Source: Helicobacteraceae bacterium (GTDB lineage: Bacteria > Campylobacterota > Campylobacteria > Campylobacterales > Sulfurimonadaceae). Taken from it: 41,395 nt of DNA. A program made the position numbers and the translations under genes. The stretch's first letter is position 1. Every line of letters begins with the position of its first letter. Under the pieces are notes generated by a model. The model saw only the letters and a program-made list of their open reading frames with translations, had not been told where the DNA came from and ran no database searches. Positions 33,757 through 38,785 of the stretch are shown here, in pieces. The stretch lies in assembly GCA_027023805.1 (NCBI GenBank), contig JALVUF010000018.1:1-41395 (forward strand). Direction: 5' to 3'.

Positions 33757-33769
33757 AAACTGCTATTAC
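33742..33769. terminator. Convergent hairpin shared by yeiH-like gene and comM
   Basis: Perfect 11-base stem GTAATAGCAGT (33742-33752) / ACTGCTATTAC (33759-33769), loop ATAAAA. The yeiH-like stop codon lies in the loop and the comM stop touches the right arm. Likely a bidirectional terminator or mRNA end, though no long T tract flanks it. Confidence 0.6.
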
Positions 33770-35274
33770 TATCTTATTCTGTAACTAAGCGCCTCTAAAA
33801 TATCTGCTTTTGCTATCATATCGCTTTTGTTTATATCTGCTATTGTACGCGCTACTTTTTGTATTTTCTTAATTGCACGAAAAGAAAGGGCAAACCTATT
33901 TATGGCATCATTAAGCGTTTGTATTGCCTCCTTATCCAGTAAGCAGTAGCATTCTATCTCTTCATCTGAAAGTTTTGCATTAAATTTAGTTTGTCCGCGC
34001 TTTGATAGAAATTTTACAGCCTCTAATACTTCTACATGCAACTCTTTAGAAGTTACATCGCCACTATCCTCGACAGATACATTTTGCATAGTCACTAAGA
34101 GATCTATTCTGTCTAAAAATGGATCGGAGAGTCTATTTTTATATCTTTTTATCTCAACTTCACTACACCTGCACTCTTTGTTTTGATCTAGCAGATTTCC
34201 ACATGGGCATGGATTCATAGCTCCTATAAAAAGAAAATCTGCGGGATACTCAACCTTTGAGTTCACTCTTGAAATCCGTATCCTGTTGTCCTCAAGCGGT
34301 TCTCTTAGTGCCTCAAGAATATTTTTAGCAAAATATGGCAGTTCGTCAAAAAACAGCATGCCGTTGTGGCTTAATCCAACCTCCCCTATCTTGGCAGAGT
34401 ACGAACCGCCTCCAAAAATACTTGCCGCAGTTGAAGTATGATGAGGTGCTCTAAAAGGGCGCAGAGGTAGAAAATCTGGTTCTATGCCTTCGATGGCTTG
34501 AAGCTTGGCAATATCTAGCATCTGCTCAAAACTAAGCGGAGGTAAAATATAACGCAATCTCTTAGCTATCATTGATTTACCGCAACCCGGGCTGCCTTCA
34601 AGTAATATATTATGAAAACCGGCTGCAGCAATTAAAATAGCTCTTTTAGCTCTACTTTGCCCCTTAACATCTTTAAAATCTTCATTATACCTATTCACAT
34701 AATAAAGATTTTCGTAAGATTTTATAAATTCATACTCCATATTCGTTGAATCTGCTGCTTTAATATTGCCACTATCGTCTTGCAAAACATCTAATGCTTC
34801 GTTAATATTAGAAACTCCAAAAAATTGTACGTTCTTAATCTTTGTTAACTTACTGAGACTTTCCTTTGGAACTATTGCTTTATCTATTAAGCCTTGATTG
34901 GCAAGAGAAAGAACTAGTGCAAATAAATATCTATTTTCTTTTACGCTACCGCTTAAACCAAGCTCACCAAACACAAACCAGCCTGAGATATCTATCTCTT
35001 TATCGTCTAAAAGCAATAAAATCGCTATACTCAAATCAAATTGACTGCCCTCTTTTTTTAAATCACTGGGGCTTAGATTAATGACAAATCTTTTGGGAGG
35101 AAATGAATATCCAAGATTTAAAACAGCAGACTTGACCCTTTCTTTTGACTCAGTTATTGCAGTAGATGCGATCCCTACTATACTAAAAGAGGGCAACCCT
35201 TTTGTTAAACTTGACTCTACATATACAACTTTAGCGTCTATACCCTCATATGTTGCACATTTTACTTTTTTCAT
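33769..35274 (-). CDS. comM: ComM/YifB-family Mg-chelatase-like AAA+ ATPase
   Basis: A 501-residue AAA+ protein; ComM homologues are branch-migration helicases that help integrate DNA in natural transformation. An N-terminal Lon-protease-like (ChlI) domain covers residues 1-170, followed by Walker A GSPGCGKS (227-234), Walker B GMLFFDEL (305-312) and a cysteine cluster CPCG...CRC (356, 358, 368, 370), then a C-terminal helical lid. Length matches the family (about 505). The start forms a TAATG overlap with the def stop and has no ribosome site of its own, so translation probably depends on reinitiation from def. The yifB name is also used. Confidence 0.94.
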   Translation of the reverse strand: MKKVKCATYEGIDAKVVYVESSLTKGLPSFSIVGIASTAITESKERVKSAVLNLGYSFPPKRFVINLSPSDLKKEGSQFDLSIAILLLLDDKEIDISGWFVFGELGLSGSVKENRYLFALVLSLANQGLIDKAIVPKESLSKLTKIKNVQFFGVSNINEALDVLQDDSGNIKAADSTNMEYEFIKSYENLYYVNRYNEDFKDVKGQSRAKRAILIAAAGFHNILLEGSPGCGKSMIAKRLRYILPPLSFEQMLDIAKLQAIEGIEPDFLPLRPFRAPHHTSTAASIFGGGSYSAKIGEVGLSHNGMLFFDELPYFAKNILEALREPLEDNRIRISRVNSKVEYPADFLFIGAMNPCPCGNLLDQNKECRCSEVEIKRYKNRLSDPFLDRIDLLVTMQNVSVEDSGDVTSKELHVEVLEAVKFLSKRGQTKFNAKLSDEEIECYCLLDKEAIQTLNDAINRFALSFRAIKKIQKVARTIADINKSDMIAKADILEALSYRIR

Positions 35275-35798
35275 TATAGATTATGCTTTTTCTCTTTTAG
35301 TCGCCGCTTGTACTCTTTTTCAAATTTTTTACGCTTCATATATGGTAATTTTTCAATAAAAAGTTTTCCTAGCAGATGGTCTATTTCATGCTGAATTGCT
35401 ATACTTAAAAGACCATCGGCTTCAAGTGTGTGTTCGTTAGAATATCTATCTTGATATTGTAAAGTTACAGTATCATATCTCTGTACATCCTCATAAAACC
35501 CGGGGACGCTGAGACAGCCCTCTTGATAGGTAGTCTCTCCATTTTGCTTAATAAATACCGGATTGATAATCTCTATTAAATTATCCGGACTTTGTTCTCC
35601 ATTCTCATCCGGAAGATTTATAATAAGTGCATTTAGCGGATAATTTACCTGTATCGCCGCCAAACCTATACCGTTGTTATTAAGCATAACTTCGTTCATA
35701 GAATCAAGTAGCTTATGTAAATGTTTGTCAAAATCTTCTATCTTTTTTGAAACCTTTTTTAAACGTGGATCGGGGTATGTTAATATATTTAACTGCAT
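35274..35798 (-). CDS. def: Peptide deformylase
   Basis: Removes the formyl group from new proteins' N-terminal Met. The 174-residue protein has all three active-site motifs: GIGLAAIQ (43-50), EGCLSVPG with metal ligand Cys95, and QHEIDHL with His137, Glu138 and His141. AAAGGAG lies upstream and its ATG overlaps the stop of the GGDEF gene (TAATG). The block tig-clpP-(GGDEF)-def-comM is a co-translational processing cluster known in this phylum. Confidence 0.97.
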   Translation of the reverse strand: MQLNILTYPDPRLKKVSKKIEDFDKHLHKLLDSMNEVMLNNNGIGLAAIQVNYPLNALIINLPDENGEQSPDNLIEIINPVFIKQNGETTYQEGCLSVPGFYEDVQRYDTVTLQYQDRYSNEHTLEADGLLSIAIQHEIDHLLGKLFIEKLPYMKRKKFEKEYKRRLKEKKHNL

Positions 35799-36880
35799 TA
35801 TTGCTCCTTTGCAGCAAGGGGAGATACAGCATAATCCTCCTTGGTGTCGCCATAGGCCGTGTCCATAGCTTTTAGCGCCTCAACTACAATCTCTTCTGAT
35901 GTCTTTGTGGTAATCACTGGTGCAACGCCTATAATAACTGATAGATTAATCTCTTTATCGGCAACGAAAAAATTACTGTTTTGCACCAAATCAATCAATC
36001 TTTGACTAGCTTTAACGGCACTTGAGATATCAGTATATTTTAAGAGCATCACAAAAACTCCATTGCCGTAATGTGCGACTATATCGCTTCGTCTAGATGT
36101 TTTTAGCAGCAACCTTGCTATTGTCTTTGTCATAAGCGATAAAGTATTTTTACCTATTTTATCTTTATTTTTTGCTAATAAACGTGAAAGCTCTACTGCA
36201 ATTATGCTGCTTTTATGTTTAAACTCACCAATTAAACTTATCTCCTGTTCTAATTTACTAAAAAAGTATCTCTTATTATACAAACCAAATTGATTATCAA
36301 AAATAGTTTCATTTTCGACTTTTTTGACAATATCTGCTGTTTTATCATACATGGTTTTTAAGCTATCTATCTGCTTTGTAAATATTGAACTTAATTTATT
36401 CATATCGTGCTCTAAAGTATTAACAATTGCCGCTACACTTTGATTATCATTACTACTGTCTATTTCTAATTTTTTCTTTTTAAGTATCTTTTTCATGATA
36501 GATATATTTTTATATAAATCAGCCGCTACAAAAAGGATATCTTTTATAGATTTAAAGCCTAGTTTCAAGCTTTTTTCCAGCTCTAGCGTATTTGTATCAT
36601 TGCCACTATTGTCCTCTAGCTCCAATATGGAAGTTACCTCTTTTTTAAACCTGCTGCTTTTATTTTCAAGAAGTCTATCAAAATATAATAAAAAATTACT
36701 AGGAGTAGGCACAAGAGCATCTTTTGATAAGGCATCTAAAACTTCTTGAGAGTACTCCTGTAAGCCGGGAAATATATTCTCATCCGCTTGAGTATCTGCA
36801 TTTTGAGGCTTTAGTGCAATATCTTCAACTTCTAATTTTACATTCCCGATATTTCTACGCTTTCTTGGTGTTTTTGGCAT
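35798..36880 (-). CDS. Degenerate GGDEF-domain protein with retained I-site-like RxxD
   Basis: A 360-residue cytoplasmic protein. Residues 1-55 are polar; 58-72 (PTPSNFLLYFDRLLE) resemble the short region before many GGDEF domains; 100-190 is helical, possibly coiled coil. The GGDEF-like domain starts at FGLYNKRYF (198-206), the usual D-x-L-T-x-L-x-N-R-R-x-F site. The active loop reads GNGVF (272-276) instead of GGDEF, so catalytic Asp/Glu are lost and cyclase activity is unlikely. An RxxD (Arg263-Asp266) keeps the exact spacing of the c-di-GMP inhibitory site. It may therefore bind c-di-GMP or act as a partner protein. It sits between clpP and def and overlaps def by one base. Confidence 0.8.
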   Translation of the reverse strand: MPKTPRKRRNIGNVKLEVEDIALKPQNADTQADENIFPGLQEYSQEVLDALSKDALVPTPSNFLLYFDRLLENKSSRFKKEVTSILELEDNSGNDTNTLELEKSLKLGFKSIKDILFVAADLYKNISIMKKILKKKKLEIDSSNDNQSVAAIVNTLEHDMNKLSSIFTKQIDSLKTMYDKTADIVKKVENETIFDNQFGLYNKRYFFSKLEQEISLIGEFKHKSSIIAVELSRLLAKNKDKIGKNTLSLMTKTIARLLLKTSRRSDIVAHYGNGVFVMLLKYTDISSAVKASQRLIDLVQNSNFFVADKEINLSVIIGVAPVITTKTSEEIVVEALKAMDTAYGDTKEDYAVSPLAAKEQ

Positions 36881-36891
36881 ATACCGCTCTT

Positions 36892-37482
36892 TTATTCTGA
36901 TTCTTTTTTTACAAGAATTTCATCTATTATACCATATTCTTTTGCTTGTTTTGCGCTCATAAAATTGTCTCTATCGGTGTCGGCTTCAATCGTTTTGATA
37001 TCTTGTCCAGTATTTTTTGCTAAAATCCCGTTTAACTCATGCTTCATTCTTATAATCTCTTCAGCTTGAATCTGAATATCAGACGCCTGACCCTGGGCAC
37101 CGCCTAAAGGCTGATGAATCATGATTCTTGCATGAGGCAGAGCATATCGCTTTGTCTTTGCTCCTGCGCTTAGCAAAAAAGAGCCCATTGAGGCGGCTTG
37201 ACCTATACATATCGTTGCAACATCAGGACGAATATAGTTCATAGTATCAAAAATTGCCATGCCGGCAGTAACTACACCCCCGGGAGAATTAATATAAAAA
37301 TAGATATCTTTTTGGGGATCTTCGGCTTCTAAAAATAAAAATTGCGCAACTACTGTTGAGGCAACCGCATCATTAACCTCACCACTTAACATAACAATTC
37401 TATCTTTTAAAAGCCTTGAATAGATATCATAAGAGCGCTCTCCGCGACCCGACTTTTCAACCACATAAGGTATATAGCTCAT
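36892..37482 (-). CDS. clpP: ATP-dependent Clp protease proteolytic subunit
   Basis: The chambered serine protease that works with ClpX or ClpA. From the preferred start the protein is 196 residues with catalytic Ser98 (GQAASMGS), His123 (MIHQPLGG) and Asp172 (TDRDNFM), the complete triad. I choose ATG 37482 (MSYIPYVVE), one base after the tig stop, with AAAGAG in front; an upstream in-frame codon at 37506 would add eight residues that lie inside tig. Length then matches the usual 194-196. Operon with tig upstream and the GGDEF gene downstream. Confidence 0.97.
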
Positions 37483-37483
37483 A

Positions 37484-38785
37484 TTAATCTCTTTTAACTT
37501 TTTCATTTAATAATTTTGTCAGCACTCTGTCTTCAATCATTGCCATCTGTACAGCAGGCAAATATCCAGATTTTTGATACTGTTCATAATGCTCTTGCGG
37601 TTCCCTTCCCATTTGAACTGCCTCATAATAAAGTGTTTGCATAATCTCCTGCTCAGATACATTAACAGATTTAACTTTAGCTAAAGCATCAATTAAAAAT
37701 GTAGCCTTTACGCTTCTTGTTGCATCATCTCGAAATGTTTCTCTAATTTCTAATACTTTCTCATCATTATCTTTTAACTCATCTATCTCTTCTTTGGTCA
37801 TAGTCTGAGCTTTTTTATTTAAAGCCACATCCATCTCCTGCTCAATCACAAAATCAGGCAAATCAAAATCTATATTATCTACCAATTTTTCTAACAACTC
37901 AGGTTTTAATTTGTCATTATATAGTTTATTAAGAGCTTCATTTTCTAGTTGTAATTTCAATTGATCTTTTAATTTGTCAAGAGTCATGGTATCATCATTT
38001 GGAGCCATCTTTTTTGCTATCTCTTCGCTAATGACTATTTCGCCTCGTGCCTGAATAGCATTGAGCTTGATTTTAAACTTAACCGGTTTTCCTGCTAAAT
38101 TTTCTTGCCCGTAATCTTGAGGGAAAGTTACCTCTATCTCTTTGCTCTCTCCTTTTTTAAGACCTATAAGCTGGCTTTCAAAGCCGGGAATAAATTGATT
38201 TGAACCTATTTCAAGTGCATAATTCTCAGCTTTACCGCCGTCAAATGCAACATCATCCAAAAAGCCCTCAAAATCTATAATTGCCGTATCACCTTCTGCT
38301 AGACCACGATCCTCTTTAATGTCTTCAAGAGGCGTTTGAGCTTTAGCAAGCTCCAGCAAACGCTTATTCATAGCCTCTTCGCTTATATCTGGAAGCTCAA
38401 TCTCATCAATTAGCTTTTCATAATCTCCAAGAACAATATCCGGTCGTAAAGAGATCTTAATCTCCACATCAAGACCCGAGTCTGTTTTATCCAATTTTTC
38501 CATTTGCGGCTCACCGATTACTGCCTCTGGAGATATATCCATCTGCTTTAATGCAGTATCAAGAACATCACGTATAGCCTGTCCCTGCGCATCTTCTTTT
38601 AGTTTTTCACCATACTGTTTTTTAATAACATCAAGAGGCACTTTACCTTTACGAAATCCGGCAACATCAGCAGTTTTGCTAAGCTCTTTTGCTAATTTTT
38701 GTATATTTTTATCAATATCTTCATTTGATATAGTGGCCTTTACAACTGCGTTGGCAGTATTTAATTTCTCTGTTATGATGTCCAT
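37484..38785 (-). CDS. tig: Trigger factor
   Basis: Ribosome-associated chaperone and peptidyl-prolyl isomerase that meets nascent chains at the exit tunnel. The 433-residue protein has the ribosome-binding signature GFRKGKVP (43-50), the FKBP-like domain about 150-245 ([14 protein letters not shown]...[13 protein letters not shown]) and a helical C-terminal arm. Length is typical (432 in E. coli). A strong AAGGGGA site precedes ATG 38785, and a candidate TATTAT -10 lies at 38817-38812. First gene of the tig-clpP-GGDEF-def-comM operon. Confidence 0.97.

Follow-up and report, generated by a model that had tools for sequence, protein, structure and literature searches.

What does a GGDEF protein that has lost its catalytic loop, and still carries an RxxD motif, do between clpP and def in a member of the Campylobacterota? 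The gene lies in a 41,395-nucleotide stretch of DNA from a Helicobacteraceae bacterium, analysed as a whole and hereafter called the window. An earlier note had described its product as catalytically dead, proposed it as a c-di-GMP receptor and read its position as a link to protein maturation or turnover. We predict, with a probability of roughly 0.7, that it belongs to a family, spread across the phylum, of dead diguanylate cyclases acting as c-di-GMP receptors. In the window, tig, clpP, the degenerate GGDEF gene, def and yifB/comM follow one another on one strand, and the stop of the degenerate GGDEF gene overlaps the start of def by one base:

37484-38785, minus strand, tig, trigger factor (PF05697, PF00254, PF05698)
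36892-37506, minus strand, clpP, upstream neighbour (PF00574, 288.7 bits)
35798-36880, minus strand, gene of the degenerate GGDEF protein, 360 aa (ORF call; PF00990 match)
35274-35798, minus strand, def, peptide deformylase, downstream neighbour (PF01327, 164.2 bits; TIGR00079)
33769-35274, minus strand, YifB/ComM-family Mg-chelatase-like ATPase (TIGR00368, 454 bits)

The only Pfam domain above its cut-off in the protein is GGDEF (PF00990, residues 194-342, 55.6 bits with a cut-off of 23.8), and no receiver domain was found. The AlphaFold2 model (mean pLDDT 86.8) places a three-helix piece, two long helices and the GGDEF fold in series:

36611-36769, minus strand, N-terminal three-helix part, residues 38-90, with invariant P60 and F67 (AlphaFold2 model; column retention)
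36308-36601, minus strand, residues 94-191, two long helices forming a coiled-coil-like stalk that leads into the GGDEF domain, with invariant E102 (AlphaFold2 model; invariant columns)
35855-36301, minus strand, GGDEF domain, residues 194-342 (PF00990; structure matches)
36083-36094, minus strand, predicted I-site R263-R264-S265-D266 (orthologue conservation)
36053-36067, minus strand, degenerate active-site loop GNGVF, residues 272-276 (orthologue alignment)
35999-36001, minus strand, R294, equivalent by its spacing (RxxD Arg + 31) to PleD R390 and DgcR R237 (orthologues; PMC8041772, PMC7288161)

The GGDEF domain matches the fold of 3ign (Z 24.2, rmsd 2.2 over 165 residues) and superposes on that of PleD, 9g86_A (Z 23.6, rmsd 1.9 over 167 residues). 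The protein resembles PleD, DgcB and SiaD in its GGDEF fold, in the spacing of the I-site and in the stalk helix ahead of the domain; unlike the window protein, these three are active cyclases with an intact loop. Sequence comparison with the PDB gave no N-terminal match better than E about 0.02, and no named fold was obtained, the fold lists for the whole model being full of GGDEF domains and barely testing this part. At three other loci we found proteins that combine an intact GGDEF loop with weak N-terminal similarity to the family (L340, E 2.3e-5; L342, E 0.007; L343, E 0.0018). These matches, though weak, make it likely that the family derives from cyclases sharing its N-terminus.

Translation of the open reading frame agrees with the earlier note that GNGVF replaces GGDEF at residues 272-276 and that R263 and D266, nine and six residues ahead of the loop, keep the six-residue offset. 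The loop is degenerate throughout the family, a canonical GG[DE]EF loop occurring in 0/152 aligned orthologues. An orthologue with an intact active site, which the earlier note had named as counter-evidence, was sought and not found among the 152. The predicted loss of catalysis extends beyond the loop. The first Asp of DxDxFK, D in 30/30 canonical GG[DE]EF domains, is E in the window protein and most commonly K, E, R, A, T, S or Q in the family, D lying outside these seven commonest residues (n=152); the second is D in 8/152 orthologues. The Gly of YGH is missing in 151/152, and at the Asp position of GHxxGD the seven commonest residues of the 152 orthologues do not include D. F276, in turn, is F in 151/152, which suggests that the loop hairpin is retained as a fold element. 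Together, these residues support the view that the protein is a dead diguanylate cyclase and not an active enzyme.

Judged by its sequences, the family is old, phylum-wide in Campylobacterota and fixed at the clpP-def site. Orthologues were fetched from genomes chosen out of 397, not from every matching genome; 303/397 genomes match at E 1e-5, a figure that takes in other GGDEF proteins. Plasmid records gave four weak GGDEF hits, none spanning 80% of the query. The position between clpP and def noticed earlier recurs in all fetched loci (84/84; 40 + 40 + 4), and across the 181 loci with both neighbours the stop of the GGDEF gene lies anywhere from 38 bases inside to 32 bases before the def start. 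In the first orthologue alignment, D266 and F276 were present in 150/150 sequences and R263 in 146/150, near-invariance that argues against a chance motif. Genome G133 holds a second family copy away from clpP-def (L339, 1893-2837), which keeps RRSD and has a GNGIF loop; it is flanked by a same-strand exoribonuclease R-like ORF and, on the other side, by a GreA-like ORF, both named by eye.

An RxxD motif alone says little, since it is common in GGDEF domains (about 53%; PMC3974145); it occurs in 23/30 of the canonical GG[DE]EF domains that we compared. We therefore set the motif against a census of PF00990 matches over the 397 genomes, in which the cyclase state was assigned by genus, most positives resting on profile scores and a subset on reading the loop. 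R263xxD266 is present in 97/98 orthologues from genera counted as having a canonical GGDEF enzyme, well above the background of about 53% or 23/30, and in 0/54 orthologues from genera counted as cyclase-null, where the gene itself is kept. R294 is likewise retained in 97/98 cyclase-positive as opposed to 7/54 cyclase-null genomes, with 7/12 of the g8 nulls retaining it (genera and families are referred to here by our own handles). The exceptions among the positives are G252 with K263 and G249 with S294; G252 (L122), the sole cyclase-bearing genome with K at 263, also has an unusual loop, ENDLF. D266 is retained in 47/54 nulls, so this Asp is not diagnostic and has a structural share. Row L157 (genome G010, also represented by L038) is left out of the 98/54 count and included in the column-retention and loss-dealing analyses below, and the G014 orthologue (L223, KTANRSD) was read outside that count.

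Canonical GGDEF enzymes occur in g26, g42, g34, g32, g9, g16 and others. The division runs through a single family, f2, which is probably Helicobacter-like: the site is kept in cyclase-positive g26, g42, g34, g32 (loops read) and g45 (called by score), and lost in g47, g31, g35, g18 and g8, all counted cyclase-null. The I-site segment KTSRRSD is replaced by KNIGAKD in g35, DKIGKED in g31, KHIQTSS in g47, KIANRSD in g8 and KNISSSD in g15, the last being probably akin to the C. jejuni group. In g18, g31, g35 and g47 there is at most one GGDEF match, which is the clpP-def protein itself. In g8 and g15 one to three additional, weaker matches occur; the loops read are degenerate (SPEKF, TSEKI, STEKI, EDGKF, GEEEF, GDEEF and similar). 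One g8 genome, G022, whose second, divergent GGDEF domain (44.9 bits) carries a GGEEF loop, was grouped with the nulls by genus; in the other twelve g8 genomes read, the second loop is non-canonical. G038, G054, G111, G150 and G193 were called null with their genus, g15, and in further g15 genomes the loop was read for the best-scoring other GGDEF protein only. The second degenerate GGDEF protein of g8 (L215-L222, L272-L276; about 400 aa) has lost its own I-site Arg and mostly shows QYSNxSDLIAYY ahead of a loop ending in EEF or EF. Genome G267 (g42) was counted positive with its genus; the one canonical cyclase seen in it is split over two frames in the assembly (L277, G267:C5:66000-68200), because of a sequencing error or because the loss is very recent, and the I-site of its receptor candidate is intact.

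C. jejuni CbrR binds c-di-GMP through the variant I-site KGRD, in an organism for which low c-di-GMP is reported (PMC8779298). This case cautions that a null call may not mean zero c-di-GMP, nor a variant I-site absence of binding. Within these bounds, the proposal of the earlier note that the protein receives c-di-GMP through its I-site appears well supported, the site being lost in genera without a recognisable cyclase. Relatives that no longer make the signal keep the protein and lose the predicted site, which suggests that the protein is probably a sensor. Two features expected of a PopA-type degenerate-GGDEF receptor are found, namely an RxxD kept alongside a dead active site and an additional arginine at the place of PleD R390. 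In the two papers on PleD and DgcR, R390 is described as part of the PleD I-site; it lies 31 residues after R359, as DgcR R237 lies 31 after R206 (PMC7288161, PMC8041772).

The losses are, on the alignment, aimed at the I-site. From 31 positive genera (99 rows, with one genome represented twice) we took the 21 columns whose genus-weighted conservation is at least 90%, and scored their retention in six null genera (54 rows). The least retained were R263 (0.04), S262 (0.10), R264 (0.10) and R294 (0.10), followed by K175 (0.37), with the rest at 0.54 to 1.0 and E102 and F67 at 1.0. R294 had not been foreseen and emerged from this ranking, 31 residues past R263. When losses were dealt over the columns, the loss of R263, named beforehand, in all five null lineages had a P of 0.0032, and the loss of any column in all five a P of 0.066. 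R263, D266 and R294 together show 11/15 losses as against 23/90 for the other 18 columns (Fisher P 0.00056); for R263 and R294 alone the figures are 9/10 and 25/95 (P 0.00013), R294 having been picked after the ranking was seen. On a FastTree phylogeny of Tig, ClpP and Def (86 loci), the cyclase state changes five times and the RxxD state six times, with one disagreement (G252). Four independent pairs on supported branches all point in the same direction (P 0.125; n=4 cannot reach 0.05); with about five state changes, a sign test by itself cannot become significant.

Simple relaxation of constraint, in which the I-site decays in reduced, probably host-bound lineages with no tie to c-di-GMP, would account for the greater divergence of the null genera (20-29% identity to the window protein) and for the fall of other columns there. 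We consider it quite unlikely, because P60, F67, E102 and F276 each persist in at least 53 of the 54 nulls whereas R263 and R294 disappear, and because the site is retained in cyclase-positive genera within f2. An equally good fit to the presence pattern is a pseudo-enzyme that c-di-GMP would cross-link, I-site to I-site, with a live GGDEF protein, thereby tuning that cyclase; the site would then decay for want of a partner once the last cyclase was lost. Cross-linking of two GGDEF domains by c-di-GMP is known from PleD and DgcR (PMC7288161, PMC8041772). However, many carriers have many GGDEF proteins (19 matches in the genome of the window) and no obvious single partner, and the protein persists without any cyclase, so this role seems unlikely. 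That the protein is a residual cyclase or GTP-binding enzyme despite its loop change is very improbable: the variant-loop CbrR of C. jejuni is reported to have made a little c-di-GMP in E. coli (PMC8779298), but the protein studied here retains neither the metal Asp nor the loop acids nor the YGH/GD residues.

The operon invites comparison with PopA of Caulobacter crescentus, likewise a c-di-GMP receptor with a dead GGDEF domain and an RxxD I-site in a ClpXP context (PMC12564702), which serves CtrA degradation by ClpXP (PMC12564702, PMC8865702). By analogy, the c-di-GMP-bound protein might bring a substrate to ClpXP, and the shared clpP operon (84/84 loci) would reflect that work. PopA, however, is paralogous to PleD, carries receiver domains and has a known substrate, whereas the window protein has no receiver domain and begins with an unnamed helical domain. 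Many lineages, moreover, keep clpP without the GGDEF gene: clpP and def are adjacent and the gene is cleanly absent in 22/22 clpP loci fetched from gene-less genomes, from which it follows that neither neighbour needs it. Four of the 397 genomes lack a full clpP match at E 1e-75, and two of these, G145 and G240, also lack an intact GGDEF gene. Two co-losses of neighbours are, however, expected from block decay, tig of G145 being broken too, while the missing match in G143 reflects a contig end and G386 comes from a family that lacks the GGDEF gene; we did not count these four genomes as a sign of ClpP dependence. Stops or frame changes interrupt tig, clpP and the GGDEF gene in G145 (L278, G145:C1:61500-66500); def still matches as a single stretch, and a second ClpP of about 50% identity is encoded elsewhere. 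An adaptor of the PopA type is thus rather unlikely, and the tie to protein maturation or turnover drawn in the earlier note is conjectural, the packing of tig-clpP-X-def being set against the 22/22 loci without the gene. The putative connection to ClpP or Def comes from operon membership, and with the precedent of a dead GGDEF protein with an I-site serving ClpXP the clpP setting is a fair lead, but not more.

The receptor reading also accords with the few other c-di-GMP components found. PilZ was detected in 3/59 chosen genomes (G000, G167, G109), with no hits in the seven g42, six g26, three g34 and four g32 genomes. Six of the seven g42 genomes have one or two EAL hits, and the GGDEF count is two or three, the third hit being in G267 the broken frame counted twice and in G155 a 20.6-bit stretch in a 137-aa frame, so that the g42 matches come down essentially to one canonical cyclase and the clpP-def protein. 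In g26, two GGDEF matches occur in each genome and EAL in 1/6, as a stretch in a 1183-aa frame. The 31 null genomes among the 59 yielded no PilZ and one EAL hit (G370, in a 1183-aa frame). In G370, G281, G155 and G296, all otherwise poor in c-di-GMP genes, the EAL matches (about 90-99 bits) lie inside frames of 1183-1207 aa. Since genera with one or two cyclases gave no PilZ hit, the degenerate GGDEF protein is their obvious candidate receptor, and g42 and g26 would have a near-minimal c-di-GMP circuit; both statements refer to the classes searched, namely GGDEF, EAL and PilZ.

Within the same phylum, CbrR of Campylobacter jejuni also has a degenerate GGDEF domain that binds c-di-GMP at its I-site (PMC8779298). 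It differs in having two receiver domains, the loop SAEKI, the I-site KGRD and another locus, and the window protein scores 24.9 bits with the CbrR model, for which the cut-off is 600. Our literature searches turned up no publication describing a GGDEF gene at the clpP-def site. According to Mo et al. 2022, Helicobacter (with the exception of one species) and Campylobacter subgroup II have no active cyclases, and the four inactive GGDEF proteins of this subgroup, whose flanking genes are given in Fig. 3D, lost the loop and the I-sites where c-di-GMP signalling was lost (PMC9239204). The Campylobacter part of the pattern is therefore already published, and Fig. 3D may show the clpP-def locus in Campylobacter. 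The section of that paper concerned with these proteins describes no single orthologous family across the phylum, no intact I-site in cyclase-bearing relatives and no R294. Our analysis extends it by following one orthologous family phylum-wide, by showing the site intact where relatives have a cyclase, by adding losses within f2 and by a column ranking in which R294 emerges.

For the receptor that we predict, we envisage the following sequence of events: (i) a c-di-GMP dimer would bind the I-site through R263, D266 and R294, as in PleD; (ii) the bound ligand would hold the paired GGDEF domains of a dimer in a single fixed arrangement; (iii) the stalk of two long helices would relay this arrangement to the N-terminal helical domain, the part predicted to bind a partner. 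The partner-facing part would also be used without ligand, because the gene and the invariant P60, F67 and E102 persist in cyclase-less genera. A more specific version, in which the protein is the sole c-di-GMP receptor of g42-like genera, its output is control of trigger factor, ClpP and deformylase, and it stays a constitutive part of that machinery after c-di-GMP loss, is doubtful.

In summary, our study names a candidate c-di-GMP receptor for the whole phylum. To our knowledge, few such receptors are known in Campylobacterota. The near-minimal circuit predicted for some small genomes would offer a clean setting in which to test it. The family also represents a natural experiment, in which the ligand site went each time the maker of the ligand went and the protein was kept, thereby setting apart what the protein does with the ligand from what it does without it. 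The survival of the gene without ligand suggests that part of the protein's work is ligand-independent. If the operon is meaningful, c-di-GMP would be tied to protein quality control, and if the protein were indeed the sole receptor in g42, with the operon as its output, c-di-GMP would directly set the fate of new or damaged proteins.
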